In this document: positions 4,494-19,112 of the stretch, piece after piece
Layout: each line of letters opens with the position of its first letter
Numbering within the stretch: the first letter of the stretch is position 1
The notes under the pieces: generated by a model
What the model saw: the letters and a program-made list of their open reading frames with translations, nothing else
Databases searched by the model: none
Told to the model about the DNA's origin: nothing
From: Taibaiella lutea
Lineage (GTDB): Bacteria > Bacteroidota > Bacteroidia > Chitinophagales > Chitinophagaceae
Assembly: GCF_008629695.1 (NCBI RefSeq)
Contig: NZ_VWSH01000004.1
Span: 496,001-560,000, forward strand
Length of the DNA stretch: 64,000 nt
Reading direction: 5' to 3'
Made by a program: the position numbers and the translations under genes

Positions 4494-4853
4494 TCATACA
4501 ACTACCCAAACACCTTCCAAATAAAGTTTATAGCGCATGGGTTGCGTTTCGCCAAAAGCAAAAACAAGAATGGCATCATTTCTTTTACAGAAAAATAATC
4601 CTAAACCGCTGCTCCCCTTCAGCAAATGTAGGAAACCTTCATCAATGGTAAAATTGCCGGTCTTTAAAATAGCTTTATAATCAGCACTATCAATAGTGCC
4701 TTTCAGGTCTTCAAATCTGTTACCGGCAAAATCAGCTATCCGTACAGGGCCGCCTGCTTCGATGTGGGTATTCAATTCAAACGAACCTGCCAGGGCTTCC
4801 CCTTCGAAGCCGTCAAAGAGCAGCGATTTTTCAATGGCATATTTTGTAATCAT
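4494..4853 (-). CDS. Small cytosolic protein, candidate immunity factor for the TNT toxin
   Basis: 119 residues, no signal peptide and no membrane segment, acidic to neutral, beta-rich pattern. I do not recognise a family. It begins 10 bases after the stop of the TNT-domain gene on the same strand, so the two are almost certainly co-transcribed. TNT toxins are known to be paired with a small neutralising protein (IFT in Mycobacterium tuberculosis), and this gene has the position, size and cellular location expected of such a partner. The immunity role is inference from context only. Confidence 0.75.
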   Translation of the reverse strand: MITKYAIEKSLLFDGFEGEALAGSFELNTHIEAGGPVRIADFAGNRFEDLKGTIDSADYKAILKTGNFTIDEGFLHLLKGSSGLGLFFCKRNDAILVFAFGETQPMRYKLYLEGVWVVV

Positions 4854-4863
4854 AAATCAATAA

Positions 4864-5481
4864 CTACCGTGGCTGTGTTACGTCCGGTATATTCTGAAGG
4901 TAACCATTTTGTACCAAATCGTTGATGGTATAAGGCAATTGATATTGAAGACCCAGCCCAACCTGTCCAAACCATGGAATAGCGGTGCCTTCATTTACAT
5001 TCGGAATTGTTTTTATAATCCTGTAAACATGGTAAGGATATGTCCTTGCAGTATCTTGCAATGAACGATCCTTAAACGGTTCACCCGCCGGAGCCACAAA
5101 TCTTCCCCATTGATCGGTAAACACGCCGTCAACAACCTTGCCGCCATAGCGGTCAACAAGCACTCCTGAGTCGAGCGTTACTATTTTTGAATAAACAGCG
5201 CCATTATTGGGCGGCCATCCGCCATTCAGGTTGTTTACCTTGAACAAGGTTTCCAGTGTAGCCCATTGTTCCATTTTCCAGAGTTGCCAGGCAACGGCGG
5301 CTATGGTTTTCAGGCTGGTATCGGTTAATGCCGAAACAGCTTTAAAAGTGTCGAAGCTTACGCCCCGTACAATGGCAGACGATAAGGTTTTTGTTTGAAG
5401 TTTTGGCTGCGTGGTTTGTTGTGCCGTGGTCAAAAAAGGCATCAGCAGCGCTACGAACAGTAGTACTTTGAATTGTTTCAT
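4864..5481 (-). CDS. Secreted TNT-domain protein, predicted NAD+ glycohydrolase toxin
   Basis: The 205-residue product starts with a Sec signal peptide (MKQFKVLLFVALLMPFLTTA, cleavage about residue 20). Residues about 105-197 read as a TNT domain, the NAD+-hydrolysing fold of the tuberculosis necrotizing toxin: VDRYGG at 109-114, PAGEPFKDRSL at 131-141, YPYHVYRI at 148-155, and PWFGQVGLGLQYQLP at 169-183. Arg111, Arg139, His151 and Gln179 fall where the catalytic residues R757, R780, H792 and Q822 of TNT would be expected; R139-H151 is 12 residues as in TNT and H151-Q179 is 28 against 30. There is no T9SS sorting domain, PAAR or other delivery domain, so the export route beyond the inner membrane is unknown. 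The next gene is the probable immunity gene. Confidence 0.82.
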   Translation of the reverse strand: MKQFKVLLFVALLMPFLTTAQQTTQPKLQTKTLSSAIVRGVSFDTFKAVSALTDTSLKTIAAVAWQLWKMEQWATLETLFKVNNLNGGWPPNNGAVYSKIVTLDSGVLVDRYGGKVVDGVFTDQWGRFVAPAGEPFKDRSLQDTARTYPYHVYRIIKTIPNVNEGTAIPWFGQVGLGLQYQLPYTINDLVQNGYLQNIPDVTQPR

Positions 5482-6730: not shown

Positions 6731-7282
6731 ATGATTTTAAACCCGATAAAAAGGCTTTTGTGTGTTTTAGTTTTGGGGCCTTTGTTGCTGCTCCTTTCGT
6801 GTAATCAGCAAACACCCGCTCAAACCGAATCTATTGCTTCGGACAATAACAATAATACTCAACACAGTTTTGGGCAATATTGCAATAGCCGTTTTGGCTT
6901 TTGCATCGATTACCCGAAGGATATACTTGAAATGCAATCTGAAAGCCAGAGCGGTGATGGCAATGATTTTATGGACAATAAAAATGTTGTGGTTTTAACT
7001 GTATTTGGCAGAAGAAATGAAACGCCTGATGGCGACGAAATAAGTCTTTCGGATCAATTTAAAAACGACATACAAGAACTTGACACTACCGGCAGCGATA
7101 TCACTTATCAAAAACTCGGCAAAAAGCTATATGTTATTTCAGGCCTGAAGAACAATAAAATTTTTTACCGAAAGACAATCTTGTTAAAGGAAGCTTTTGC
7201 TTTTGCAATAATGGAATACCAACAAAGCGATTCGCTTATTTACAATCCATTGGTTGCCTCTGTTTCCAATTCATTCAAATAA
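6731..7282 (+). CDS. Predicted lipoprotein of unknown function
   Basis: 183 residues with a lipoprotein signal peptide: basic start, hydrophobic core LLCVLVLGPLLLLL and lipobox ending SC at residue 24. The mature part has no family I recognise; it includes Cys-bearing YCNSRFGFCIDYP at about 55-67, a pattern seen in small Bacteroidota lipoproteins. It lies 30 bases after the hydrolase gene and probably shares its transcript. Confidence 0.7.
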   Translation: MILNPIKRLLCVLVLGPLLLLLSCNQQTPAQTESIASDNNNNTQHSFGQYCNSRFGFCIDYPKDILEMQSESQSGDGNDFMDNKNVVVLTVFGRRNETPDGDEISLSDQFKNDIQELDTTGSDITYQKLGKKLYVISGLKNNKIFYRKTILLKEAFAFAIMEYQQSDSLIYNPLVASVSNSFK

Positions 7283-7376
7283 GCCAAACCAACTATTAAT
7301 TTCACCACTTTACAAGCGAAAGGATATAGAAAAGAACAAATGGCTCCGTTAAAGGTTATTAAAAGAAAATCAACTG

Positions 7377-8909
7377 ATGGAACATTCATCAATCCATAAA
7401 ACGCAGGTAGTGATAGCAGGTGCTGGGCCTACGGGCTTGAGCCTGGCTGCCCAGCTAATAAGGCACAATATTGATTTTATAATACTTGAAAGGAATGAAG
7501 CGACCACTCATCTATCCAAAGCGGTAGTGGTACAGGCGCGTAGCCTTGAAATATTTGAGGAGCTTGGCATTATTGAAGAAGCTATGAAACTAGGCCGTGA
7601 AACGACCGGCATGAATCTATTCTATAAAGGCAAACGCAAAGCGGCCATAGACCTCAAGGATCTGGGCGAAGGCGTGAGCAGGTTTCCTTTTGCACTTTCG
7701 CTTGAACAAAGTAAAACTGAACATCTCTTGGCAGCATATCTTTCTCAGAAAGGAAAACAGGTGCAATGGAAATCGGAAGTGATATATTTTGACCAGCAAG
7801 CAGACAAGGTGCTGGTTTATTATAAAGATAGCAGCGGCAGAGCACAAGAAATAGAGGCTGATTATCTGGTGGGTTGTGACGGCGCAGGCAGTGTAGTACG
7901 GCATCAGCTGAACCTCACATTTTCGGGAAGTACAAAACCCAAATTGTTTTATGTAGCGGATGTAGTGCTTTCCAGTACGGTAATTAATGAAGATAACCTG
8001 TACATGTATATGATAAAGAAGGGGTTTGTACTTTTTTTTCCGATGGAAGGTGCGGGACATTATCGTATTGTGGGTATTGTACCGGAACATCAGCAGACTA
8101 AAGCCGAATATACTTTTGAAGACATAAAGCCGCTTATTACGAAAGAAATCGTTTCTCCGATAGAGTTTACGGAACTAAGATGGTTTTCAACTTATAAAGT
8201 GCACAGCCGCATGGCAGATGCTTTTATGGACAAACGATGCTTTGTGGCGGGAGATGCGGCACATATTCATACGCCTGCAGGCGGACAGGGCATGAACACT
8301 GGGATACAAGATGCTTACAATTTAGCATGGAAAATTGCTTACACATTAACAGGTGAGGTAAATGACAATGTATTAAAAACCTATAATACCGAACGCTGCG
8401 GGAATGCAAAACATCTGCTGCAAACCACCGACAGGATGTTTGATGTGATATCGGGCGTTAATCCTTTCTGGAACACCATCAGGCTTGCTTTCTTTCCCTT
8501 GTTCCTTTCCGTACTTTCAAAAAGCAGGTTTATAAAACAGCGGATTTTTCCATTGCTATCACAAACAGGCATTGCTTATCCTGAAAGTTACCTGACTTTA
8601 GAAAGCGCTGTCGAAAAAGTAAGGGCCGGCGACCGGATGCATTACTTTGTGTTTGCCGATGGCAAACACATATTCAGTTATCTGACAGAGCCCGTTTTCA
8701 AATTACTGTTTTTCGGGAAAAAAGATATTCAGAATCCATTGAAAGATGCTCCTATCAAAATGACATTTCATGCCTTCAATGAAATTCCTGCCACGCTTTT
8801 TGGAAACAATACTGAATTTTATATCTTATTACGCCCGGACAATCACATTTCATATATCGGGAAGGATATAGATGCCTGCAGGAAAATGACAGAGAAAATA
8901 AGCAATTGA
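7377..8909 (+). CDS. FAD-dependent aromatic-type monooxygenase (PHBH/UbiH fold)
   Basis: 510 residues of the class A flavoprotein hydroxylase family (phenol or pentachlorophenol hydroxylase-like). The N-terminal Rossmann motif VVIAGAGPTGLSLAAQL (GxGxxG at 15-20) binds FAD, VGCDGAGSVVR is the middle DG motif, and VAGDAAHIHTPAGGQGMNTG near 290-308 is the GD motif that contacts the FAD ribityl chain. Residues beyond about 400 form the shorter C-terminal region; the full thioredoxin-like domain of phenol hydroxylases seems reduced. These enzymes use NAD(P)H and O2 to hydroxylate aromatic or polyketide substrates; the substrate is not predictable here. Confidence 0.9.
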   Translation: MEHSSIHKTQVVIAGAGPTGLSLAAQLIRHNIDFIILERNEATTHLSKAVVVQARSLEIFEELGIIEEAMKLGRETTGMNLFYKGKRKAAIDLKDLGEGVSRFPFALSLEQSKTEHLLAAYLSQKGKQVQWKSEVIYFDQQADKVLVYYKDSSGRAQEIEADYLVGCDGAGSVVRHQLNLTFSGSTKPKLFYVADVVLSSTVINEDNLYMYMIKKGFVLFFPMEGAGHYRIVGIVPEHQQTKAEYTFEDIKPLITKEIVSPIEFTELRWFSTYKVHSRMADAFMDKRCFVAGDAAHIHTPAGGQGMNTGIQDAYNLAWKIAYTLTGEVNDNVLKTYNTERCGNAKHLLQTTDRMFDVISGVNPFWNTIRLAFFPLFLSVLSKSRFIKQRIFPLLSQTGIAYPESYLTLESAVEKVRAGDRMHYFVFADGKHIFSYLTEPVFKLLFFGKKDIQNPLKDAPIKMTFHAFNEIPATLFGNNTEFYILLRPDNHISYIGKDIDACRKMTEKISN

Positions 8910-9000
8910 AATCAGCGGTAAAAACTCAACGTCATTAATCTAAGCTTCAAAGCTTTGCTATCCTGAACTGCTTTTTTCTTTTACAGACCTTAATGCTATG

Positions 9001-9025
9001 TGCCTATCCCGCCAGGCGGGATAAG
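9001..9025. repeat. Perfect palindrome between convergent genes
   Basis: TATCCCGCC A GGCGGGATA, a 9-base perfect stem with a one-base centre at 9003-9023, between the stops of the monooxygenase and the usher-like gene. GC-rich against its AT-rich surroundings; it may be a dispersed repeat or a terminator remnant. Confidence 0.5.
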
Positions 9026-9167
9026 TCGTGTTTAATTAAACCACATAGATACATAGACAACCAGTGTCAGATAAAGATTGTGTTGAAAGAATAAGATAGA
9101 AAACAAGTTTTAAACATAGTCAATCCTTAAGGTAATGGCATTGGTAAAAACTTATTAGAGTAAGCCG

Positions 9168-11975
9168 CTACTTCTGCTTACCGAACTTCTTGATTTCCAC
9201 CTTTCGCTGCTTGACCTTGAGGATAAAGTCAACACCATTTATGATTTTGCCAGATTCAACCTGAAGCGGTTGCACATTATTGTTTTTCAACAGCAATTCA
9301 ACCTGATTGGGAAGATTTTCAACATTAATCGTATAAGTACCTACAGGCAGATAAAGATTATAATCACCATTTTCGTCTGTTTTGGTTTCAAATCTTTGTC
9401 CGTCTTTATTTGTTGCTACTATACTTTGCCAGGCTTTATCCTTTGTCATCGAAATACTGTAGGTAGAATCAAACTGATAATTAATATTTCCATGCACGGT
9501 ACCCGTCTGGCTTAATGCTATGTAGAAAGATTTGCTTTCTTTTTCTTTAAGCGGAATAAACAAATCGTGGCCGTACCATCCGTTTTGGGTAGGCATAAAA
9601 ACCGAATAATTGCCGGGAGGTAGCTTGTTGTACGTTAGTTTCCCGTCTCCACCCGACATCATAATAGCCTTGCCGATGTGTACGACAATACCGGAAGCCA
9701 GGGAATCGCCTTTATCGTAATTGCCGTTCATATTCAGATCGTAGAATAAGAACAATTCAATCTTGCCTTTATTGATATTTTTTCCGGGCTGGCTTTCAGG
9801 CAGATAATAATTGACACCAAATTGAATATTCCTGTAATAATGCGAATTACCATAAATATTATACTGCACGTTTGAATAGAATGCCATCGGCCCCAGATTA
9901 AACAGCAGGTTAAAGTTCATCAGAAAGCTTTTGGAATAATAATCTTTGTTATAAGCAATGCCGCCATCTACTCTTAAAGCCCTATTGAAAAGAAAAGCAG
10001 TCATGGAAGGCGCAATATTTAGCCTGAATGAATTGTAAGTGGCAAAATGCTCCTGAAAGGCTTCTCCCAGATAAAAGTTGCCCTGCTGAAGGTTGCCGGT
10101 CAGCCTGAAACTCCTGTAGCTGTAAGAGAGCATACTTCTGAATTGCATTTTCTTCTCATTGCTGAATCCTGTTTTATAAAGGCCGACATCTGTTTTTAAG
10201 AAAAGATTTTGCTGCATTTTCACGGGGTTGAAAGTAATAAGCGCAGACATACGCTCTGCGGTCATTGTTCCTTCCTGAATAACATTGTTATAAAACCAGT
10301 TGCCTCTTTCGGTATAATATTCAGGTGTAAGTGAAAAGCCGAATGCACCCATTGTCAATCCATAAGTAAGATCAAGTGTGGTATTGGTGTTTTCACTGTT
10401 TATCAGGTTAGCCTGATTCAAGTATTTTGGTGATGCATTTGAATAAACAACAGAAGTGCTGATGGTAGATTTATCAAGACGTAAAAAGGCTGCTTCATTT
10501 AAATATAAAGTACCCCGCCTTGTACCCGGATAATAGGCTGTTGCATAAGAGTTGTTACCTGTAAGATTCAGCTTTTTAAAGAAATAAGCGTAGTAATTGA
10601 ATGCACCAGACATGGACTTGTACGACAGGTTATTGCCAATGGTAGAAGTACTGTTGGCTACAGCAGCTTTCGCATCAGCAGAAAAATGCTCGCTTGATTT
10701 CCAGGAAAGATTGCTTACTACCAGATCATTATTAATGTTTGCAGCTTCATCCACATCATGCGTGAAAGAGGTAAAACTGGTAAGGGTCTGTTTTTCATAT
10801 TTATAACCCGCCCATGCGGACCTGCCGTAACTTGTCTGCCCGTCGCTGGAATAAATATTGACAGACTTGTCCATATAACCTGCCACTACCTTGTTATGAT
10901 GCGCTGAATCTGCATAGGCAAAAACTTCTGCGCCTGTACCGGCAAAGCTGATTTCGCCTCCCTGCGTAATATTACCTACACGCATACCTACGCGCTTATA
11001 GGTCAAATCCAAGTTGGTGCCGTTGATAGTAAGGGTTTTGACACCTTCCTTATATTTCATCAGGTTAAAGTTATACCCTACTGTTCCATCTTTAATATCA
11101 TAAAACCCTCTGGCACGTATATTATAGGTTTCACCCGCATCAAAAGCATTCTGGACACCCAACGAAATAACGTTATTGTGCATGCTGTTTTCGTTCAGGT
11201 TCTGGTCAAAGCTTCTTTTGCTTGACAAATCCTGAAAAGTAATCAGGTTGGTCGCAAATATATTACCGTCATCATAAATGCCGTTAATGGTCACGTTCAT
11301 ATAGCCGAGCTTCGACATATTGCGCGAAACTTTCCGTTGAAAAACAATTACGGTATCTTTAAAAGGCTCGAGCCTGAAATAAATGGAACGGTTGGTTTTA
11401 TCTTTCAAAACAGATGGAAAAGCAATTACAATTATACCTCCTTCCGTAACGTTACCACGGTTATTTATCCTGATAGGGATATTCAGGTAAGAGCCCACTC
11501 TCGGAAGTACCATGTCTTCGTTATCAATACTTGCGGTAAGGAGCCTGCTGGGTGCAAGAATAAGCTTGAGTGTAATGGTATCAATTGTAATCTGATTCGG
11601 AGTACGCAAAGCTATACCTACATATATATTGCCTTCCTGCGTACCCTGGTTGACATAAATTTTAGATGGAACGTAAATCTCCTGACCTGCCTGCAGGTTA
11701 ACGGGAACACTGTCTTTTGTTGCTACTTTTGCACCTTTGGCGCTGTGCAGATAAAGATATCCTTTAAAGGGTTGCGTATCCGAATTTTTAACATGGACAG
11801 TAATATCTTTAAGATCTTTATTATCAACTTTCAGTGTTGTTTCGGAAATGCTTATTGCTATTTTTTTTGAATCAAGAGAATCCTGGGTATAGCCATAAAC
11901 AACATGCAGCATCATAAAAAATAAGATGCAGATGGGTTTGATGCTGAATTTCCTCTTCTTAAAAATCGATAACAT
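9168..11975 (-). CDS. Usher-like outer-membrane assembly protein of the pilus locus
   Basis: 935 residues. A signal peptide (ending near VVYGYTQ, about residue 31) is followed by beta-sandwich segments at about 32-250 (VHVKNSDTQPFKGYLYL; RINNRGNVTEGG), a long run of alternating aromatic and polar strands at about 260-735 typical of a large outer-membrane beta-barrel, and two Ig-like or plug-like end domains at about 738-810 (FLFYDLNMNGNYDKGDSLAS ... LPPGNYSV) and 825-920 (TDENGDYNLYLPVGTYTI). Canonical FimD/PapC ushers have the same order: N-terminal domain, 24-stranded barrel, C-terminal domains. I do not see the classic usher signatures, so usher-like is an inference backed by the adjacent chaperone and pilin genes. 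Last gene of the minus-strand operon. Confidence 0.72.
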   Translation of the reverse strand: MLSIFKKRKFSIKPICILFFMMLHVVYGYTQDSLDSKKIAISISETTLKVDNKDLKDITVHVKNSDTQPFKGYLYLHSAKGAKVATKDSVPVNLQAGQEIYVPSKIYVNQGTQEGNIYVGIALRTPNQITIDTITLKLILAPSRLLTASIDNEDMVLPRVGSYLNIPIRINNRGNVTEGGIIVIAFPSVLKDKTNRSIYFRLEPFKDTVIVFQRKVSRNMSKLGYMNVTINGIYDDGNIFATNLITFQDLSSKRSFDQNLNENSMHNNVISLGVQNAFDAGETYNIRARGFYDIKDGTVGYNFNLMKYKEGVKTLTINGTNLDLTYKRVGMRVGNITQGGEISFAGTGAEVFAYADSAHHNKVVAGYMDKSVNIYSSDGQTSYGRSAWAGYKYEKQTLTSFTSFTHDVDEAANINNDLVVSNLSWKSSEHFSADAKAAVANSTSTIGNNLSYKSMSGAFNYYAYFFKKLNLTGNNSYATAYYPGTRRGTLYLNEAAFLRLDKSTISTSVVYSNASPKYLNQANLINSENTNTTLDLTYGLTMGAFGFSLTPEYYTERGNWFYNNVIQEGTMTAERMSALITFNPVKMQQNLFLKTDVGLYKTGFSNEKKMQFRSMLSYSYRSFRLTGNLQQGNFYLGEAFQEHFATYNSFRLNIAPSMTAFLFNRALRVDGGIAYNKDYYSKSFLMNFNLLFNLGPMAFYSNVQYNIYGNSHYYRNIQFGVNYYLPESQPGKNINKGKIELFLFYDLNMNGNYDKGDSLASGIVVHIGKAIMMSGGDGKLTYNKLPPGNYSVFMPTQNGWYGHDLFIPLKEKESKSFYIALSQTGTVHGNINYQFDSTYSISMTKDKAWQSIVATNKDGQRFETKTDENGDYNLYLPVGTYTINVENLPNQVELLLKNNNVQPLQVESGKIINGVDFILKVKQRKVEIKKFGKQK

Positions 11976-12012
11976 GGTGCCGGGCGCCGTAAAATTAAAA
12001 GGTTTATAGGAC

Positions 12013-13116
12013 TCAGAGCGGATTCATTATGAATGTGACCTGAGTGGTATAGACCCCCGACTCTATGCCTATAAATGCCGATTGGTTGGAATTATATTTC
12101 GTGCTGTAGTTCAGATTATAATAATTAACACGCCCTTCTGAGCCTAAATTGGTTATAAGCGTTTGCTGGCTGCTGCTCAGGTTTACAGGAGTATAGGTAG
12201 AAGTCGATATTACCGTACTGCCCTGGGTCGGCGTTAGTTTTAAAGTATTGACAGGAATGGTGGTTAAAGCACCCGACTTGCTGAAATAATTTGCAGCAGC
12301 CTGCACCTTGATTTCATAACGGCCGTCATTGGAAGACACTTTTAATCCATCGCTGACGGTTGCTTCGACACCCTGGGAAAAAGACAGGTCGGAAGAAAAA
12401 CCAAGTGATACGTTACCGCTGCCGTTCTGTAATTGTATCAGATTAGGGTATTGCGGCACGTTTACGGGAATACTGTTGTACTGAGGCCATATACCTAATT
12501 GCAGGTTGAGGTCATATTGGCTCAACAGGGTATTGCTCTGGTTATATAGCCTGACTCTTAGTACAACGGAGTAATTATCTCTGTGCAACAAAAGCATCTG
12601 ACGGTTTCCCAACAAAACAAAATCATAAGCCATACTGAAATAATCACTTGCTACCATTGCATAATTAGATTGCTGTACCAGTGTCAGTTCAGATCCTGAA
12701 AGCGGAATAGTGGAAGAAACGGCACCTATCAGATTAGTAGAATTACCATTGCTCCATGAGCTTTGTGAATTGCCGGGATTGAATTTTACTCCGAAATATT
12801 TTATGGGCCAGTTGGGTGCAGGACCAAACTGGGCAACTTCGCTCGATGTCTGTGCGGGAATCAGATAAGCTGTTAATGGCTGGATAGTCATTTTCCAGTT
12901 GGGCAATACCGCTCCGCCGCCATAGCAACTAATTTTGAATACTACGGGAAAGGTTGCACCATACACCAATTGGGATGTATCGCTTATGGTTACGTAATTT
13001 TGGGTATTTGCCTGAACAGATTGTGCAGTAGCGGCCTTCTCAAAGCCTGCTAAAAGTAAAAGGCAAAGAAATGGCTTATAAAAACACACATTATAAAGAG
13101 ATTTTCTATGAGCCAT
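12013..13116 (-). CDS. Two-domain pilus subunit, candidate tip adhesin
   Basis: About 367 residues with a signal peptide ending near ATAQS. Start at the ATG 13116; an in-frame TTG at 13140 would overlap the upstream stop. The N-terminal half (about 40-205) is a unique beta-rich domain with Trp and Tyr residues. The C-terminal part (about 230-367) resembles the pilins: DGRYEIKVQAAANYF corresponds to their GAYKVKATLSNDL, and the end SGVYTTQVTFIMNPL corresponds to TGSFTANVVYTIEAN. A lectin-like domain joined to a pilin domain is the design of tip adhesins such as FimH; the ligand is unknown. It lies between the chaperone and usher-like genes in one operon. Confidence 0.68.
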   Translation of the reverse strand: MAHRKSLYNVCFYKPFLCLLLLAGFEKAATAQSVQANTQNYVTISDTSQLVYGATFPVVFKISCYGGGAVLPNWKMTIQPLTAYLIPAQTSSEVAQFGPAPNWPIKYFGVKFNPGNSQSSWSNGNSTNLIGAVSSTIPLSGSELTLVQQSNYAMVASDYFSMAYDFVLLGNRQMLLLHRDNYSVVLRVRLYNQSNTLLSQYDLNLQLGIWPQYNSIPVNVPQYPNLIQLQNGSGNVSLGFSSDLSFSQGVEATVSDGLKVSSNDGRYEIKVQAAANYFSKSGALTTIPVNTLKLTPTQGSTVISTSTYTPVNLSSSQQTLITNLGSEGRVNYYNLNYSTKYNSNQSAFIGIESGVYTTQVTFIMNPL

Positions 13117-13136
13117 TTCTTCAAAAAATTTTAATA

Positions 13137-13943
13137 TCAATAATCAAAGTCTATCTCAGCAATTTTTAGCTCATCACTTTGACCATAGTTAATAATAGCG
13201 GTTGTAGTATATTTTCCTTTTTCCATTCCTTTCGGAAGCGCCGTATCATAAATTCTTTTATCGCCGGGTAGTGTATAAAACTCAACAGGGTCCAGTTTGT
13301 ACTTTTTACCGGTTCCTTTGTTCAGAAATTCAAATTTGATAGTGCCGCTTGTCCAAAGCTGACCGGTATTATCAAAATTCAATCTCAACCCTTTTACTGC
13401 ACCATTTTCATCTTTAGTTTCAAGATTGGAAATTTCCAGCTCAGGTATTGCTCCTACTTTAGATGAATAGTAAATTTTTATACCCATCCTTACAGTTACC
13501 TTGATAGCAGCGCCGTTTTCATTTTTACCATCACCCGGATTTAACTGAGTAAGATATAGCATTGCTGTCCTTACAGGAATATTTGCATCTTCCGGAACGC
13601 CGGCTGTAGAAATAATCACATTTTTTGATTCACCGGGGGCTAAGGTGAAAAATGCAGATGGAAGAATTTTAATATATTTTGCACAGGAGTTATCTAATTC
13701 GCCTGCGGTATATATCACATTGTTTCCCAAAGAGTCATATTTCCAGTCATTGAGCGTAATACCAACCTCAAGATTTTTGTCACTGCTCGGATTAACAACT
13801 GTTATTGTTTGTTCCGATTTATTTCCCGGGCTAAAAAACAATCTGCTTGGAGATGCAGTTATACCCGCCTGAGCAAAAACGTCTGCCGTCGAAAAAAACA
13901 GGGTCACCAATAGAATACTTATTCTAAACAGGATACTTTTCAT
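13137..13943 (-). CDS. PapD-like periplasmic pilus chaperone
   Basis: 268 residues from the ATG at 13943 (an upstream in-frame ATG at 14006 would precede the signal peptide by 21 residues). The signal peptide KSILFRISILLVTLFFSTADVFAQ is followed by ITASPSRLFFSPGNKSEQTITVVNPS, the first strands of a PapD-type domain as in archaic (Csu-type) chaperones. FFTLAPGESKNVIIST and VRTAMLYLTQLNP match the F-G region and the strand that normally donates to subunits. A second beta domain (about 170-268) completes the two-domain boomerang fold. It would bind pilins in the periplasm and pass them to the usher-like protein. Confidence 0.8.
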   Translation of the reverse strand: MKSILFRISILLVTLFFSTADVFAQAGITASPSRLFFSPGNKSEQTITVVNPSSDKNLEVGITLNDWKYDSLGNNVIYTAGELDNSCAKYIKILPSAFFTLAPGESKNVIISTAGVPEDANIPVRTAMLYLTQLNPGDGKNENGAAIKVTVRMGIKIYYSSKVGAIPELEISNLETKDENGAVKGLRLNFDNTGQLWTSGTIKFEFLNKGTGKKYKLDPVEFYTLPGDKRIYDTALPKGMEKGKYTTTAIINYGQSDELKIAEIDFDY

Positions 13944-14035
13944 AAATTTTGGCTTATTGAGAATGGTAAATTTCACGAAAAATAAATAAAAAAAACAACT
14001 TTTCATAGAATTAGAAAAAGTTCAATCTATTTTTC

Positions 14036-14581
14036 TTACTCCACCTCAATGGTATAAACAACAGTCCCGTCTAAATTCCCGTTATGTACGTCCTGGTTAC
14101 TCAAGCCGGAGGCATAATATTCTATTTCAAAAGAATTATTAAGAGCACCGGAAGTCTGGGCGTGAATGAGGTCCTTCGGCTTGTTCAAAGTCAGGTTAAC
14201 ATCCTTTTCAAATCTGTAATCCGAAGGACTGTAAGAACTGTGTGCAATAGCTCCTGAACTTACATACACCGACGAAGCAGGAATTTCCGGACCGTCAATA
14301 TCGTGAAAATCATCTCTTGCGCTTACTTTCAATACAAATTTACCGAGGCTGAAAACATTTACCTGGTTAATCCGTCCAATCTGAACATTATTGTTATTAT
14401 CAATATTGTCCGAAATATTATGGGGAGAAGTACTCGTATCAGGATTGATAACTAAACTTTGCATGGAAGAAACAAAAACCGTAATGTTAGTTTTACTTTC
14501 ATTTATCTGAGCAAATAATAAACGGGGCAATATTATTATTGCCGTCATTATTATTATTTGGAAAAATAAACGCTTTTTCAT
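14036..14581 (-). CDS. Minor pilin-like subunit
   Basis: 181 residues with a signal peptide ending in LLFAQ near residue 25. The mature protein starts with an alternating strand INESKTNITVFVSSMQSLVI, contains FVLKVSARDDF like the KVKATLSNDL of the major pilins, and ends in TVVYTIEVE, nearly the same as their VVYTIEAN. It is the first gene of the chaperone-adhesin-usher operon, 92 bases upstream of the chaperone start. A -7 box TACATTTG lies about 50 bases before its start. Probable adaptor or initiator subunit; the exact position in the fibre is unknown. Confidence 0.7.
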   Translation of the reverse strand: MKKRLFFQIIIMTAIIILPRLLFAQINESKTNITVFVSSMQSLVINPDTSTSPHNISDNIDNNNNVQIGRINQVNVFSLGKFVLKVSARDDFHDIDGPEIPASSVYVSSGAIAHSSYSPSDYRFEKDVNLTLNKPKDLIHAQTSGALNNSFEIEYYASGLSNQDVHNGNLDGTVVYTIEVE

Positions 14582-14624
14582 TGAAAGAGATGCTAAAACT
14601 ATTATTGGCAGGTTATTTGTTAAT

Positions 14625-14640
14625 GCTATGACAAATGTAT
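14625..14640 (-). promoter_or_regulatory. Promoter -7 box of the pilus assembly operon
   Basis: The minus strand reads ATACATTTGTCATAG here, matching the Bacteroidota -7 consensus TAnnTTTG about 50 bases ahead of the minor pilin start. Confidence 0.55.
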
Positions 14641-14847
14641 GCTGTTTCTGATAAAGACATACCTATAATATATGAACAAAAGAAAACCGGAAGATGGTTC
14701 AGGAAAATGTAATGATGCATTTAAAGTAAGATAACATCGCTGTAACTCCGAATTGAAATTCAAATCTACGCTTCAAGCCAACTTACAGTAAATACATCAT
14801 TTCATTTAATAAAGCCTGAAAAGCTGTATTAAGAATCCTTTTTGCAA

Positions 14848-14888
14848 AAAATGCTCACGATATCTTTATACCGCAAGCATTTTTTTTT
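14848..14888 (-). terminator. Terminator of the first major pilin gene
   Basis: Stem AAAAAATGCT / AGCATTTTTT with a second inner stem (GGTAT/ATATC). It sits 29-69 bases after the pilin stop and would separate the pilin gene from the assembly operon. Confidence 0.65.
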
Positions 14889-14916
14889 ATAAAGAGCTTG
14901 AAAATTAAACCGCGGC

Positions 14917-15507
14917 TTAGTTAGCTTCGATTGTATAAACCATAGTGTTTGTAAAAGAACCTACAGCCAAGTTAACAACATCTGTAAAACTACTTAATAA
15001 ATAAGCTACGTTGAAAGTTGTACCTCTTGTACCGCCTGTTGCAGCAGGAGAAGCGACAAGCTCTGTAAGCTCACTGCCACCATCAGCAAAAGTTCTGAAT
15101 GAATTATTAGGGGTTGCAGCAGTTTCTCCTGATGAAGCAGCCGGAGTACCATTAACCTTAATACCTAATGCTGTACCTGGAATATTTTTTCTACCTGCTC
15201 CTGTTGCAGTTGTAGTCAAATTTCCTTGAAGCGCAGCTTTAACTTTATAACCGCCTCTCGATACCACTTTAATTTGTGTTTCAACATCAGGTACGATACC
15301 TGTTGCAGTTGCAGCATTGTTATAGTCATCAGCAGTAGCAAGCGTAAATGTTGCGTGATCGCCGGAAAGGATTTCTATCGTTTTAACATCAGATACGTTT
15401 ACACCGATAGTAGCAGTTTTGCTCGTATCTAAAACTCCTGGTTGCTGAGCATTAGCAACTACGGCGCCTGTAAGAACGATTGCGGATAAAATTAATAACT
15501 TTTTCAT
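14917..15507 (-). CDS. Major pilin-like subunit, paralogue 1
   Basis: 196 residues with a Sec signal peptide (MKKLLILSAIVLTGAVVANAQ). The mature protein has no cysteine. It has a short N-terminal alternating strand (SKTATIGVNVSDVKTIEI) that could act as the donor strand, a VSRGGYKVKAALQGNL motif near the middle, and the C-terminal end GSFTNTMVYTIEAN. It is the most diverged of the three tandem paralogues. It has its own promoter block and terminator, so it is transcribed apart from the assembly genes, as expected for an abundant structural subunit. I do not recognise a named family; the pilin role comes from the shared C-terminal strand and the neighbouring chaperone and usher-like genes. Confidence 0.72.
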   Translation of the reverse strand: MKKLLILSAIVLTGAVVANAQQPGVLDTSKTATIGVNVSDVKTIEILSGDHATFTLATADDYNNAATATGIVPDVETQIKVVSRGGYKVKAALQGNLTTTATGAGRKNIPGTALGIKVNGTPAASSGETAATPNNSFRTFADGGSELTELVASPAATGGTRGTTFNVAYLLSSFTDVVNLAVGSFTNTMVYTIEAN

Positions 15508-15589
15508 TTTTGTTGTTTTTAGTTTTGGTTAATTATTGTTAGTTGGTTAATTCTTTTTAAGACTGGGTAAATCTTGTTCTTTTTTGATA

Positions 15590-15720
15590 ATGCAAAGATG
15601 CAACGGCTTCTACTTTGAGAAAAGTCAAATCATAACTAAAAAAGATACTTTTCATCTTACTTTATCAGTGTATTTTAGCATTTAACCAAAATACTGATAA
15701 TCCCTTTTAGAAATAGTCAA
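15590..15720 (-). promoter_or_regulatory. Conserved pilin promoter region 1
   Basis: ATGCAAAGATGCAAC at 15590-15604 (minus strand CATCTTTGC, a -7-type box) lies 83 bases before the pilin start. Upstream it is followed by TAAAAAAGATA near 15638 and CTGATAATCC near 15696. The same blocks in the same order occur before the two other pilin genes. Confidence 0.65.
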
Positions 15721-16147
15721 ATTGTACAATTGACATTACATTACGGAAAAGGTTTTCACTTGCTTACAAATTATATGAAATTGTACTTAACAAAGCATTG
15801 GCACGGCTATAACAATTCTTATTTTATAGCACCTGCTACAACATTCTGGCAACTCTTTAACTTAATATTACACGAAGAAGAATATACCATACTAAAATAT
15901 GTTATGGTTTATTCTGTTTTTTTCCATATTCAGTCAGGTAAAATCTCACTTCGGGCAGGTATATATTTTTTACGGACTTAACTCCGCTTCATGTAATTAA
16001 AGCTTAAACGTTATGGTATTTTCAACTACTGTTCCATTAGATGCAATTTACATTTACCTGAATGAGCCCTGTTCCAATACTCGTAATTTGTGATTCACGT
16101 AAGTAAGCTTTGAGCTATCTATTTACAACAATGTAATTTTTTCTGAT

Positions 16148-16183
16148 AAAAAAAATGCCTGCAAAGAATCGCAGACATTTTCT
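16148..16183 (-). terminator. Terminator of the second major pilin gene
   Basis: Hairpin CTGC/GCAG flanked by AAATG/CATTT, ending in a T run on the minus strand. The same hairpin sequence recurs after the third pilin gene. Confidence 0.7.
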
Positions 16184-16219
16184 TAACTGAACCTAAAAAA
16201 CCTAATTTATGAAGAATGT

Positions 16220-16795
16220 TTAGTTTGCTTCAATAGTATATACCACATTTGCGGTGAATGAACCCGTAGCAAGGTTAATAACACCCGGGAAGTTACCCAA
16301 TTTGTAGTTAACGCTAAATGTTGTTCCTAATGTACCGCCCACATTTCCTGCACTTGCAGTTTTAATGATATCGGCAATAGTTCCGCCGCCATTTGTAAAA
16401 ACGGTATTGGTACTGATAACAGTCGGAGCCGTTTCACCCGATTGGGTTGTAGCGCCAGATACGCTGATGCCTAATTTACTTCCGGGAATGGAACTTGCAC
16501 CGTTTGTAGCTGTTGCGTTTGTAAGGTCATTGCTCAAAGTAGCCTTTACCTTATAAGCGCCTCTTGACACGACAGTAACATTCGTAGGCGTAGAAGCTGA
16601 CAAACCGGTAGCGCCCGAAACTGCTGTGTAATCTGCAGTAGAAGCTAATGCAAACGCAGGAGCAGCGCCGGAATTAATAGTAATTGTTTTTACATCACTC
16701 ACTGTAACACTAAGGTTTGCAGTTTGGGATGTTTGTGCCTGAGATACTGCTGCTCCTGAAACTATCAGTGTGGCAAGCATTAAGATCTTTTTCAT
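16220..16795 (-). CDS. Major pilin-like subunit, paralogue 2
   Basis: 191 residues with a signal peptide ending in VSQAQ (residue 21). It aligns without any gap to paralogue 3; by eye about 30 of 191 positions differ. No cysteine. Predicted all-beta, with the N-terminal strand ANLSVTVSDVKTITI, a VSRGAYKVKATLSNDL motif and the C-terminal strand SFTANVVYTIEAN. Small residues and Thr/Ser/Asn are enriched, as in secreted fibre subunits. It probably forms the shaft of the pilus together with or alternately with its paralogues. Own promoter and terminator. Confidence 0.74.
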   Translation of the reverse strand: MKKILMLATLIVSGAAVSQAQTSQTANLSVTVSDVKTITINSGAAPAFALASTADYTAVSGATGLSASTPTNVTVVSRGAYKVKATLSNDLTNATATNGASSIPGSKLGISVSGATTQSGETAPTVISTNTVFTNGGGTIADIIKTASAGNVGGTLGTTFSVNYKLGNFPGVINLATGSFTANVVYTIEAN

Positions 16796-16861
16796 TTTTT
16801 TGTTGATTTATTAATTAGTTCAATGGTTTTTGCTTGACGCAATTCTTGCTGTTGTTTGGTA

Positions 16862-16985
16862 ATGCAAAGATGCAACTCCCTTAAACGTTATAATTGTGTG
16901 AAATGGATTAAAAAAGATAAAATTGATCTCAGTTTATCCACGAATTAATATTTTTAAACAAAAAATTGATAATCCTTTGTTTCGG
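16862..16985 (-). promoter_or_regulatory. Conserved pilin promoter region 2
   Basis: ATGCAAAGATGCAAC at 16862-16876, 67 bases before the start, followed upstream by TTAAAAAAGATA, CTCAGTTTA and TTGATAATCC, the same series as at the other pilin genes. Confidence 0.65.
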
Positions 16986-17096
16986 TAACTTTTAAGAGCT
17001 GTATTCTCCCGAAAAATAACATAATAATCAAAAGCGGATATTTATAGATAGTAAAATAGTAGCGAAGACAATATCAAATGTTCAAATTCATATAAA

Positions 17097-17133
17097 AGAA
17101 AAATGCCTGCAAAAATTTGCAGACATTTTCTTA
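17097..17133 (-). terminator. Terminator of the third major pilin gene
   Basis: Hairpin with arms CTGCAAA and TTTGCAG, flanked by AATG/CATT and a T run on the minus strand; nearly the same as the terminator at 16148-16183. Confidence 0.75.
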
Positions 17134-17166
17134 TGAACCTAATTCTAAAATCACCATATTTAAAAC

Positions 17167-17742
17167 CTAATTCGCTTCAATGGTATAAACCACATTTGCA
17201 GTAAAGGATCCTGTTGCCAGGTTAATAACACCCGGAAAATTTGCTAATTTATAATTGACATTAAAAGTAGTACCTAAAGTACCCCCGGCATTACCCGTAC
17301 TCGAAGTTTTTACGATATCGGCAATAGTGCCACCGCCAACAGTGAAAACAGTATTTGCACTTATGACTGTCGGAGCTGTTTCACCCGATTGTGTTGTTGC
17401 TCCAGATACGCTGATACCTAATTTGTTTCCCGGGATAGTTCCTGCTCCGTTAGTAGCGGTAGCATTGGTAAGATCGCCGCTCAAAACCGCTTTTACTTTA
17501 TAAGCACCTCTTGATACAACAGTGATATTTGTTGCAGTACTTGCTGCTAATCCTGTAGCACCTGAAACTGCAGTAAAATTTGCTGCTGAGTTGATTGCAA
17601 AACCGGGGGCAGCGCCTGAATTAATAGTAATGGTTTTAATATCACTTACAGTGACGCTTATATTTGCGGTCTGTGAAGTCTGAGCATTAGATGCAGCAAC
17701 ACCCGAGACTAAAAGCGTGGCAAGCATTAATAACTTTCTCAT
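17167..17742 (-). CDS. Major pilin-like subunit, paralogue 3
   Basis: 191 residues, signal peptide ending in ASNAQ (residue 21), no cysteine. The C-terminal half is almost the same as paralogue 2, and the last 26 residues are identical (NFPGVINLATGSFTANVVYTIEAN region). The signal peptide and N-terminal strand differ most. It is the gene nearest the 3' edge of the locus, preceded by its own copy of the shared promoter blocks. A recent tandem duplication with paralogue 2 is the simplest explanation; possible uses are dosage, antigenic variation or recombination. Confidence 0.74.
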   Translation of the reverse strand: MRKLLMLATLLVSGVAASNAQTSQTANISVTVSDIKTITINSGAAPGFAINSAANFTAVSGATGLAASTATNITVVSRGAYKVKAVLSGDLTNATATNGAGTIPGNKLGISVSGATTQSGETAPTVISANTVFTVGGGTIADIVKTSSTGNAGGTLGTTFNVNYKLANFPGVINLATGSFTANVVYTIEAN

Positions 17743-17800
17743 TTATTATTGATTGATTGGTTCGGTTAAAATTTACTGGTACTCTTGCGTTTGTTGTTCG

Positions 17801-17925
17801 ATGCAAAGATGCAACCACTATTTAACTAACAGAAGATAATAAAGGCCAAAAAAGGATATATTTCAACTCAGTTTAAAAGCTGATAAGTAGATTTAAACGA
17901 AAAACTGATATTTGGCTGTTTGGCA
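17801..17925 (-). promoter_or_regulatory. Conserved pilin promoter region 3
   Basis: ATGCAAAGATGCAAC at 17801-17815, 59 bases before the start, followed upstream by CAAAAAAGGATA, CTCAGTTTA and AAAAACTGATA. Confidence 0.65.
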
Positions 17926-18086
17926 TGAAGTTTTAGTTAAAGAAATTACAATGCTTTTTACCGAAATCGGATATTATGGAAATGAAGTAGGAATTTAAAT
18001 GCATGAATATTCTTACAGCTTTTTAATAAGGCAATTTCTTTATCCTGTAATAGAGTAAAAGTAATTTTGGCGCGCTGTCGCCGTAC

Positions 18087-18094
18087 TATATTTG
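18087..18094 (+). promoter_or_regulatory. Promoter -7 box of the LLM monooxygenase gene
   Basis: TATATTTG with a TTTG element 17 bases upstream (18066-18069); fits the Bacteroidota promoter pattern. Confidence 0.6.
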
Positions 18095-18122
18095 TATCTT
18101 ATTAAAATAAGAAAATCAGATA

Positions 18123-19112
18123 ATGGGAAAAATAAAATTGTCGGCATTAGACCTTTCGGTTGTAACAGCAGGCGGAAATTATCAGAGTGCTATAGAAAGA
18201 ACGGTGGAAGTGGCCCAACATATTGAAAAACTGGGTTTTCAACGTTTATGGCTTGCCGAGCACCATAATATGCAACACATTGCAAGCTCTGCTACAGCGG
18301 TCATGATTGGACATGTTGCGGGGAAAACAAATTCTTTACGAATTGGTTCCGGTGGCATTATGCTGCCAAATCACGCACCATTGGCAATTGCTGAGCAATT
18401 CGGCACATTGGAAACAATGTACCCCAACCGGATTGAGCTTGGATTAGGCCGTGCACCAGGTACAGACCCGGCTGCAGCAATGGCATTGCGCAAAAATTTC
18501 GCTAATAAGCCCTACGATTTTGCACCAAATATACTGGAGCTTCAAAGTTATTTTCAGAATACAAATGAAAAAACACTTGTAAGGGCTTTTCCGGGAGAAG
18601 GCGCCAATGTGCCGATATGGATTTTAGGTTCAAGCACAGACAGTGCCTATGTAGCTGCGGCCTTTGGCCTACCCTATGCTTTTGCATCTCATTTTGCACC
18701 TACCGATTTAATGACTGCCATTTCAATATACAGAAAAAACTTCAAGCCTTCCAAACAGTTGCAACAGCCTTACGTAATGCCATGTATCAATGTAATTGCT
18801 GCCGATACGGATAAAGAAGCCAACAGACTGGCAACAAGCATTTACCAGATGTTTCTCGGAATCATAACCAATAACAGAAGACCATTGCAACCTCCTGTCG
18901 ATTCTATGGATGGCTTATGGGATTTACAGGCACAGGCTACAGTGGCACAAATGACAAAATACACTTTTGCCGGAAGCAAAGAAACCTTGCGTCAAAGATT
19001 AAGTGCTTTTCTTGAAGATACGCAAGCCAATGAATTAATGATAAACACCAATGTGTTTGATCTGGATGCCAGATTACATTCGTTCAGTATCCTGAATGAG
19101 GTATTTGAATAA
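18123..19112 (+). CDS. LLM-class flavin-dependent monooxygenase (luciferase-like)
   Basis: 329 residues, a single luciferase-like TIM barrel. Typical motifs are SALDLSVVTAGG at the start, GFQRLWLAEHHNMQHIASSA near 38-57, IRIGSGGIMLPNHAPLAIAEQFGTLETMYPNRIELGLGRAPG near 78-119, and GSSTDSAYVAAAFGLPYAFASHF near 169-191. This is the E. coli YhbW/MsnO8 type, which uses FMNH2 and O2; physiological substrates are mostly unknown. Stand-alone gene with its own promoter, ending at a bidirectional terminator shared with gap. Confidence 0.9.
   Translation: MGKIKLSALDLSVVTAGGNYQSAIERTVEVAQHIEKLGFQRLWLAEHHNMQHIASSATAVMIGHVAGKTNSLRIGSGGIMLPNHAPLAIAEQFGTLETMYPNRIELGLGRAPGTDPAAAMALRKNFANKPYDFAPNILELQSYFQNTNEKTLVRAFPGEGANVPIWILGSSTDSAYVAAAFGLPYAFASHFAPTDLMTAISIYRKNFKPSKQLQQPYVMPCINVIAADTDKEANRLATSIYQMFLGIITNNRRPLQPPVDSMDGLWDLQAQATVAQMTKYTFAGSKETLRQRLSAFLEDTQANELMINTNVFDLDARLHSFSILNEVFE

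Follow-up and report, generated by a model that had tools for sequence, protein, structure and literature searches.

Can a member of the Bacteroidota, a phylum known for its type V pili, assemble a surface fibre with a dedicated chaperone and an usher-like gate? The question is raised by seven minus-strand genes at positions 9168–17742 of a 64,000-nucleotide stretch of the Taibaiella lutea genome (assembly GCF_008629695.1, contig NZ_VWSH01000004.1, positions 496,001–560,000), hereafter the window. The initial annotation, made from the sequence alone, had described them as a fibre locus with a chaperone, a large barrel protein in the place of the usher, a tip-adhesin candidate, a minor pilin and three major pilins. 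All seven open reading frames (ORFs) were confirmed at these coordinates and on this strand (Table 1). They form a genuine and conserved set of genes for a pilus of the chaperone-guided, donor-strand kind, with a gate protein of unproven descent and a link to known filaments, and the locus family would add a variant of chaperone-usher-like assembly to the fibres of this phylum. The product is likely to be an adhesive surface fibre, assembled by donor-strand exchange under a division of labour of the chaperone-usher type.

Gene content and conservation of the locus

A Sec-type start, mostly ending in AQ, is seen by eye in all seven proteins, as had been claimed for all subunits. The proposed common C-terminal ending is present in the four pilins (VVYTIEAN, VVYTIEAN, MVYTIEAN and VVYTIEVE); the tip candidate, with VTFIMNPL, conforms to it only loosely. 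The chaperone, tip and barrel genes are tightly packed: the first two overlap by 4 bases, and 37 bases separate the tip gene from the barrel gene. Single-sequence searches of Pfam, NCBIfam and PDB were uninformative for the chaperone and the pilins, and profiles were needed. Single-sequence and profile searches of the genome yield one barrel place and one full chaperone place, to which the single-sequence search adds a stop-containing chaperone fragment (E 0.014). Matches to the pilin profile better than E 0.4 are confined, in this genome, to the four pilins and the C-terminal domain of the tip candidate. Ten other window proteins were scanned, and none has a pilus-related look. The gene set is more than a chance assembly, because homologous sets recur in all 24 loci that were read and a 13-base element marks the three large pilin genes.

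The 24 loci comprise that of the window, those of three named relatives, eighteen from a class-wide chaperone search and two from a barrel search. The class-wide search matched 43 of 295 genomes, and the eighteen places next best after the window's own, of 47 listed, were read in context. ORFs were called by a script and grouped by iterated hidden Markov models, the barrel grouping being limited to ORFs of 850–1300 residues. Every locus combines a chaperone and a barrel protein with one pilin or more, and the complete barrel proteins have 925–1219 residues. Since iterated profiles can drift, a leave-out barrel profile was built from the thirteen loci outside L052 and L054–L063 (our locus numbers). 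It finds the barrel protein in all eleven loci left out, with values from 1e-37 to 1e-71, and seven of the matches are a single stretch along nearly the whole protein.

As the loci had mostly been chosen by their chaperone, the barrel and chaperone profiles were also searched separately, each in 395 genomes of the phylum, with two candidates per genome scored in the barrel search. The barrel profile finds 25 places in 20 genomes. Full-length places number 17, from 12 genomes, and every one of them has a chaperone place within 1.5 kb; eight come from the alignments and nine are new. Three of the eight fragments (G351, G599 and G553, outside the class) are also beside a chaperone place. The distribution among relatives is patchy: when the barrel protein was searched in 59 relatives, 10 genomes matched at 1e-3, and the strong matches are in four, namely the window's own, two of three congeners and G020 from the same family.

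Chaperone, pilins and tip candidate

The 289-residue protein is predicted to act as a periplasmic chaperone of the PapD (chaperone-usher) superfamily, with two immunoglobulin (Ig) domains and a hydrophobic G1 strand. Its family profile, compared by hhalign, matches eight known chaperones along both domains (P 1.7e-10), in agreement with the PapD-like chaperone of the initial annotation, and five E. coli chaperones at P 1.5e-7; GIKIYYS is placed over RIKLYYRP of FimC. Split by class, the values are 2.1e-7 against the classical chaperones and 5.7e-6 against the EcpB-type, whereas the EcpB-type and classical chaperones find each other at only 0.013 in the same profile comparison. In the controls, the known chaperones gave P 0.0074 against the barrel protein profile, and the Ig part of the barrel protein gave 0.015 and 0.21 against the two chaperone classes.

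The nearest named relatives of the chaperone are in Taibaiella koreensis (56% identity), T. helva (55%) and Chryseobacterium lacus (38%). As a single sequence it has no PapD_N match in Pfam. E. coli EcpB likewise has none at E 0.01, and the EcpB-like chaperone of Enterobacter mori matches at 6.2e-5. Weak matches to NCBIfam fimbrial chaperones occur in the family, to TcfA in two of 24 members (best 0.0015) and to StfD in one (8.5e-4). In the window chaperone six of six G1 positions are hydrophobic, and R55, K177 and P116 lie, by reading of the hhalign output, at the classical Arg, Lys and Pro positions, which, so mapped, are conserved in 15, 7 and 17 of the 24 members. PMC4654587 names the subunit-anchoring residues and the superfamily proline, the archaic anchor being Arg89, Tyr196 and Arg174 of CsuC.

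The pilins are predicted to have an N-terminal donor strand and an incomplete Ig fold. Of the 50 complete pilin-type ORFs, 34 were aligned (alignment A3); those omitted are ten second small subunits and six near-copies. In the strand after the signal peptide, large hydrophobic residues occupy columns 28, 30, 32 and 38 in 34, 33, 34 and 33 of the 34 pilins, and the intervening columns 27, 29, 31 and 33 in 0, 0, 10 and 2. The last strand alternates too, with columns 180, 184 and 186 hydrophobic in all 34.

In PDB, the 34-member profile finds TLP-2 (9ikk) at 3.1e-20 and TLP-1 (9ikj) at 4.3e-19, the third match being at 0.84. A single pilin from a chaperone/barrel locus (L052:8913-9701) matches TLP-2 at 1.1e-40 and TLP-1 at 1.8e-38, over chain residues 3–235/236, and by eye the TLP chain starts about where the signal peptide of this pilin is expected to be cleaved. 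The pilin family is homologous to the TLP-1/TLP-2 filament subunits along the subunit length. The likeness is that of one pilin family; the window pilins differ in being shorter (about 170 residues when mature, compared with 236–237) and are distant relatives only. This kinship and the N-terminal strand pattern of the 34 pilins speak for the donor-strand pilins of the initial annotation.

We take TLP to be a label from the CryoSeek work, and TLP-1 and TLP-2 are presumably donor-strand-exchange fibrils. The CryoSeek fibrils, said to be those of Wang et al. in PNAS in 2024, reportedly came from pond water, their source not being identified at the time. In them, the N-terminal strand of one protomer is said to complete the Ig domain of a protomer four places away (n and n+4). 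What is new here is that genes of TLP-type pilins adjoin those of a chaperone and a large barrel-like protein. A filament type of known structure acquires a chaperone and a candidate gate, to which some of the loci add a tip candidate.

The 375-residue protein has the make-up of a tip adhesin, its binding role being putative. Its C-terminal part matches the pilin profile at positions 38–179 only. As the match begins at position 38, this part is a pilin domain without signal and donor strand, and it stands behind a variable N-domain, which accords with the two-domain tip candidate originally proposed. In the ten of 12 comparisons that reach outside Taibaiella, identity is 22.7–28.1% in the C-domain and 7.8–20.5% in the N-domain, the C-domain being higher in all ten; within Taibaiella the order is reversed by a small margin (59% in the N-domain, 54% in the C-domain). 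The tip profile has one PDB match, at E 1.3, and no Pfam family is found in the window member. A two-domain gene of this type (TIP) is present in 13 of the 24 loci. In five it is larger (457–493 residues), and three of these five stand after the barrel gene.

Eight loci (L052, L054, L055, L056, L058, L059, L061 and L062) have a TLP-type layout of four genes: the chaperone, one pilin of 236–272 residues, a second subunit of 200–226 residues and the barrel protein. No TIP-type gene was found in them. A more distant case is L067 on plasmid p_2 of Deinococcus sp. D7000 (6963–12565), where the genes are annotated as hypothetical. The chaperone matches the family along its length (5.6e-33). The adjacent 1018-residue protein resembles the barrel family at its ends only, in the Ig-like and SdrD_B-like parts, the barrel region being without a match, and no confident pilin was found at this locus. 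Relatives of the 1018-residue protein, over 97% of its length, are encoded on two other Deinococcus plasmids. Archaic chaperone-usher systems are reported from Deinococcus-Thermus in PMC4654587. Neither the window barrel protein nor the TLP-type pilin gave a match when searched against plasmids.

The barrel protein and the assembly it may serve

The 935-residue protein starts with two Ig-like domains (residues 35–250, approximately), which resemble the Ig domains of the chaperone (P 2.1e-7). The region at about 265–735 is barrel-like: a crude scan for alternation shows 28 amphipathic peaks from residue 265 to residue 735, which fit a large barrel, though the end domains give such peaks as well. 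It is followed by an SdrD_B-like domain (742–800) and a CarboxypepD_reg-like domain (852–886), both below the Pfam cut-off, and a basic tail. The two domains are found in 16 and 18, respectively, of the 22 family members in alignment A2, from which two of the 24 were omitted as they run off their contig stretch. The tail is conserved in this alignment around K-x-R-K-I-x-x-K-K-F-G. The likeness of residues 30–250, approximately, to the two Ig domains of the chaperone makes an origin by gene fusion possible. A TonB receptor, named in the initial annotation as the alternative for this protein, was rejected: the barrel and plug families of such receptors are not among the 17 Pfam families matched by the 22 members at E 0.1.

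The following course of assembly may be proposed. Pilin subunits would reach the periplasm via Sec, where the incomplete Ig fold of each would be completed by the G1 strand of the 289-residue chaperone (around IKVTVRMGIKIYY). The 935-residue protein, presumably in the outer membrane, would take in the chaperone-pilin complexes and secrete the fibre; its role as the gate is suggested by linkage and anatomy. There, each incoming pilin would use its N-terminal strand (around ANLSVTVSDV) to displace the chaperone strand in the preceding one. The 375-residue protein would cap the tip, since its C-terminal pilin domain could accept a strand and has none to donate, and its N-terminal domain, variable between genera, would bind the target. 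The shaft would be supplied by three pilin transcription units, and the machine by the tight chaperone-tip-barrel block. The gene set makes filament assembly testable by gene deletion.

Several observations weigh against this account. The chaperone profile matches the Ig domains of the barrel protein about as well as it does the classical chaperones. WxLIP_PGBD (PF06030) is matched by 18 of the 24 chaperone members (best 1.3e-7) and fn3_5 by 17 (best 1.5e-9), and PapD_N by just six (best 0.01). Given these matches, part of the chaperone signal may be general to Ig domains. In PDB, the best matches of the chaperone profile are WxLIP chains (1.4e-4), and pilus chaperones are absent from its nine matches up to E 10. 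The G1 hydrophobics are non-uniform, at positions 168, 170, 172, 174, 176 and 178 in 24, 14, 21, 20, 24 and 24 of the 24 members. The WxLIP matches in Pfam and PDB favour an explanation in which the chaperone-like protein belongs to the fibre itself, as an Ig component with a structural or anchoring role like that of WxLIP in Gram-positives, and the pilins polymerise without a dedicated chaperone. We consider this unlikely, in view of the match to known chaperones in both domains, the weak TcfA and StfD matches, the absence of WxL families among the Pfam hits shown for pilins, tips and barrels, and the large barrel-like protein that always stands beside the chaperone in the loci read. The present loci thus share with the WxLIP/WxL clusters of Gram-positives a protein matching the WxLIP Ig domain, and differ from them in having no WxL family among the hits and a barrel-like partner instead. 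A term search of PMC10599100 gives no occurrence of chaperone, pilus, PapD, immunoglobulin or donor.

Comparison of the pilin profile with 11 known chaperone-usher pilins, also counting against the account, showed no relation and only a 16-column C-terminal match (P 0.0048). The window clade's own pilin profile reaches TLP-2 only at E 0.12, but it finds nine pilins of the L052–L063 loci, including eight long ones of the TLP type, at 1.6e-10 to 4.2e-8 (E-values for a small ORF set); hence the homology to TLP runs through intermediates. In the phylum, the chaperone profile matches 68 of the 395 genomes, as against 20 for the barrel profile, and many chaperone-like matches, mostly weak ones, have no barrel match at the threshold used. 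One of the three congeners has no barrel match.

For the barrel protein, PF00577 is absent from the family in Pfam, and no similarity was detected between the whole profile and the classical and alternative ushers; the N-terminal, middle and C-terminal parts, taken separately, have no match to classical or EcpC-type ushers either. Of the donor-strand fibre with an usher that the initial annotation had described, the PapD-type chaperone, the pilins and the tip stand, and the usher descent of the 935-residue protein finds no counterpart in sequence relation. A system that is chaperone-usher by descent throughout, with the barrel a FimD/EcpC-type usher that has diverged very far and exchanged its N-domain for Ig domains, is a sharper form of the proposed assembly and compatible with the same mechanism. 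Its chances seem to us to fall a little short of even. It gains from the relation of the chaperone to known chaperones and from the state of the ushers themselves: at E 0.01 EcpC is without a match to PF00577, like the window protein it has a CarboxypepD_reg-like stretch at the C-terminus, and the known classes barely find each other, EcpC-type against FimD alone failing at P 0.15. However, classical against EcpC-type ushers gives 2.8e-5, and the barrel matches neither class; its N-terminal domains resemble chaperone Ig domains; and the TcfC domain (PF16967), present in EcpC, is not among the Pfam families of the 22 members. Comparison of sequences neither demonstrates nor refutes usher descent, and the protein serving as gate may instead be a replacement. 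A possibility that we hold tentatively and rather doubt is that an independent barrel substitutes for the usher, its own N-terminus incorporating chaperone-like Ig domains. If it is true, it would mean a second origin of chaperone-guided pilus secretion, across the Bacteroidota and perhaps the Deinococcota, and the TLP-1/2 filaments would be products of relatives of the present system; were the barrel unrelated to ushers, the same assembly principle would have been arrived at through another gate.

An ordinary type V (FimA/Mfa1) pilus or type IX secretion is a very improbable source of the fibre. To our knowledge, type V pili have no dedicated chaperone or usher. A type V pilus was rejected, as PF06321 has no match in the genome (other type V families were not searched) and none of the four pilins has a cysteine beyond residue 25, hence no lipobox cysteine there. 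C-terminal models of type IX are absent among the NCBIfam hits of the seven proteins. Both are known fibre and secretion routes of the phylum (PMC7835359, PMC5789003 and PMC4793230). Type V pili are likewise Bacteroidota fibres with a proposed strand exchange, and differ in having lipidated precursors and a protease that removes the first strand, according to PMC7835359.

Donor-strand assembly with a chaperone and a gate remains the preferred account, and among its closest known parallels are the Ecp and Csu systems (alternative and archaic chaperone-usher). Common to them and the present loci are the gene set, the two-Ig chaperone, the N-terminal donor-strand pattern and a tip with a pilin domain, and EcpC shares the CarboxypepD_reg-like stretch at its C-end with the window barrel protein. 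Unlike in Ecp and Csu, the barrel starts with two Ig-like domains, and barrel and pilins are unrelated to theirs by sequence. Archaic systems are placed in Proteobacteria, Cyanobacteria and Deinococcus-Thermus in PMC4654587, where the word Bacteroidetes is absent. Among the literature matches listed, judged by title and the start of the abstract and covering few subscription journals, no chaperone-usher system is described for Bacteroidota, which fits the poorly described branch suggested at the outset.

Upstream elements and other genes

The three large pilin genes are each preceded by a copy of one upstream region and followed by an inverted repeat. The 15-base core of the upstream region, GTTGCATCTTTGCAT, has three exact copies in the window, all upstream of these genes; at up to two mismatches there are four window matches, a number reached by none of 100 shuffles. 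A 13-base part of it has four copies in the 4.27 Mb genome, three of them being those upstream of the pilin genes and the fourth lying inside a 457-codon ORF, peptidase-like by eye. In T. koreensis and T. helva, too, the 13 bases stand before the pilin. The repeat pattern is partly explained by duplication, the three copies being of shared descent. Separate transcription, with a separate and strong supply of pilin, is a possible reading of the arrangement. A sigma-70 scan of the locus found 25 sites where 29.7 are expected from shuffles, and the pattern TTTG-N17-23-TAnnTTTG, found six times in the window where 5.1 are expected, is no better than chance. Invertible promoters were considered and rejected: the 13 inverted-repeat pairs in 14400–18300 are short (14–29 bases) and scattered.

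Table 1. Genes and sequence elements of the candidate fibre locus, in window coordinates.
Feature	Position	Strand	Evidence
Major pilin 1, 191 aa	17167..17742	-	Pilin profile 4.0e-37 in own genome; N-terminal strand pattern
Major pilin 2, 191 aa, 84% identity to pilin 1	16220..16795	-	ORF, pilin profile
Major pilin 3, 196 aa, 49% identity to pilin 2	14917..15507	-	ORF, pilin profile
Minor pilin, 181 aa, adjoins chaperone gene	14036..14581	-	Pilin profile; relatives equally placed in L014 and L015
Predicted two-Ig periplasmic chaperone, 289 aa, putative G1 donor strand at about residues 166–180	13137..14006	-	hhalign, column counts
Tip adhesin candidate, 375 aa	12013..13140	-	Pilin profile 3.4e-18; domain identities
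Usher-like barrel protein (candidate gate), 935 aa	9168..11975	-	Profiles, alternation scan, linkage with chaperone
Promoter-like element GTTGCATCTTTGCAT upstream of pilin 1	17801..17815	-	Exact repeat
Element GTTGCATCTTTGCAT upstream of pilin 2	16862..16876	-	Exact repeat
Element GTTGCATCTTTGCAT upstream of pilin 3	15590..15604	-	Exact repeat
Terminator-like hairpin after pilin 1, part of repeat D5	17099..17130	-	Listed by terminator scan
Second D5 copy after pilin 2	16148..16185	-	Terminator-like by eye only; absent from scan list
Inverted repeat I5 after pilin 3	14846..14885	-	Terminator-like by eye only; absent from scan list

Elsewhere in the window, the gene at 4864–5481 on the minus strand encodes a protein of 205 residues that has a TNT domain at its C-terminus (Pfam TNT, 3.4e-27). 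The small ORF after it (4494–4853) is a candidate immunity protein by position only. On the plus strand, a 970-residue protein encoded at 56940–59852 combines regulator-propeller repeats with a histidine kinase domain.

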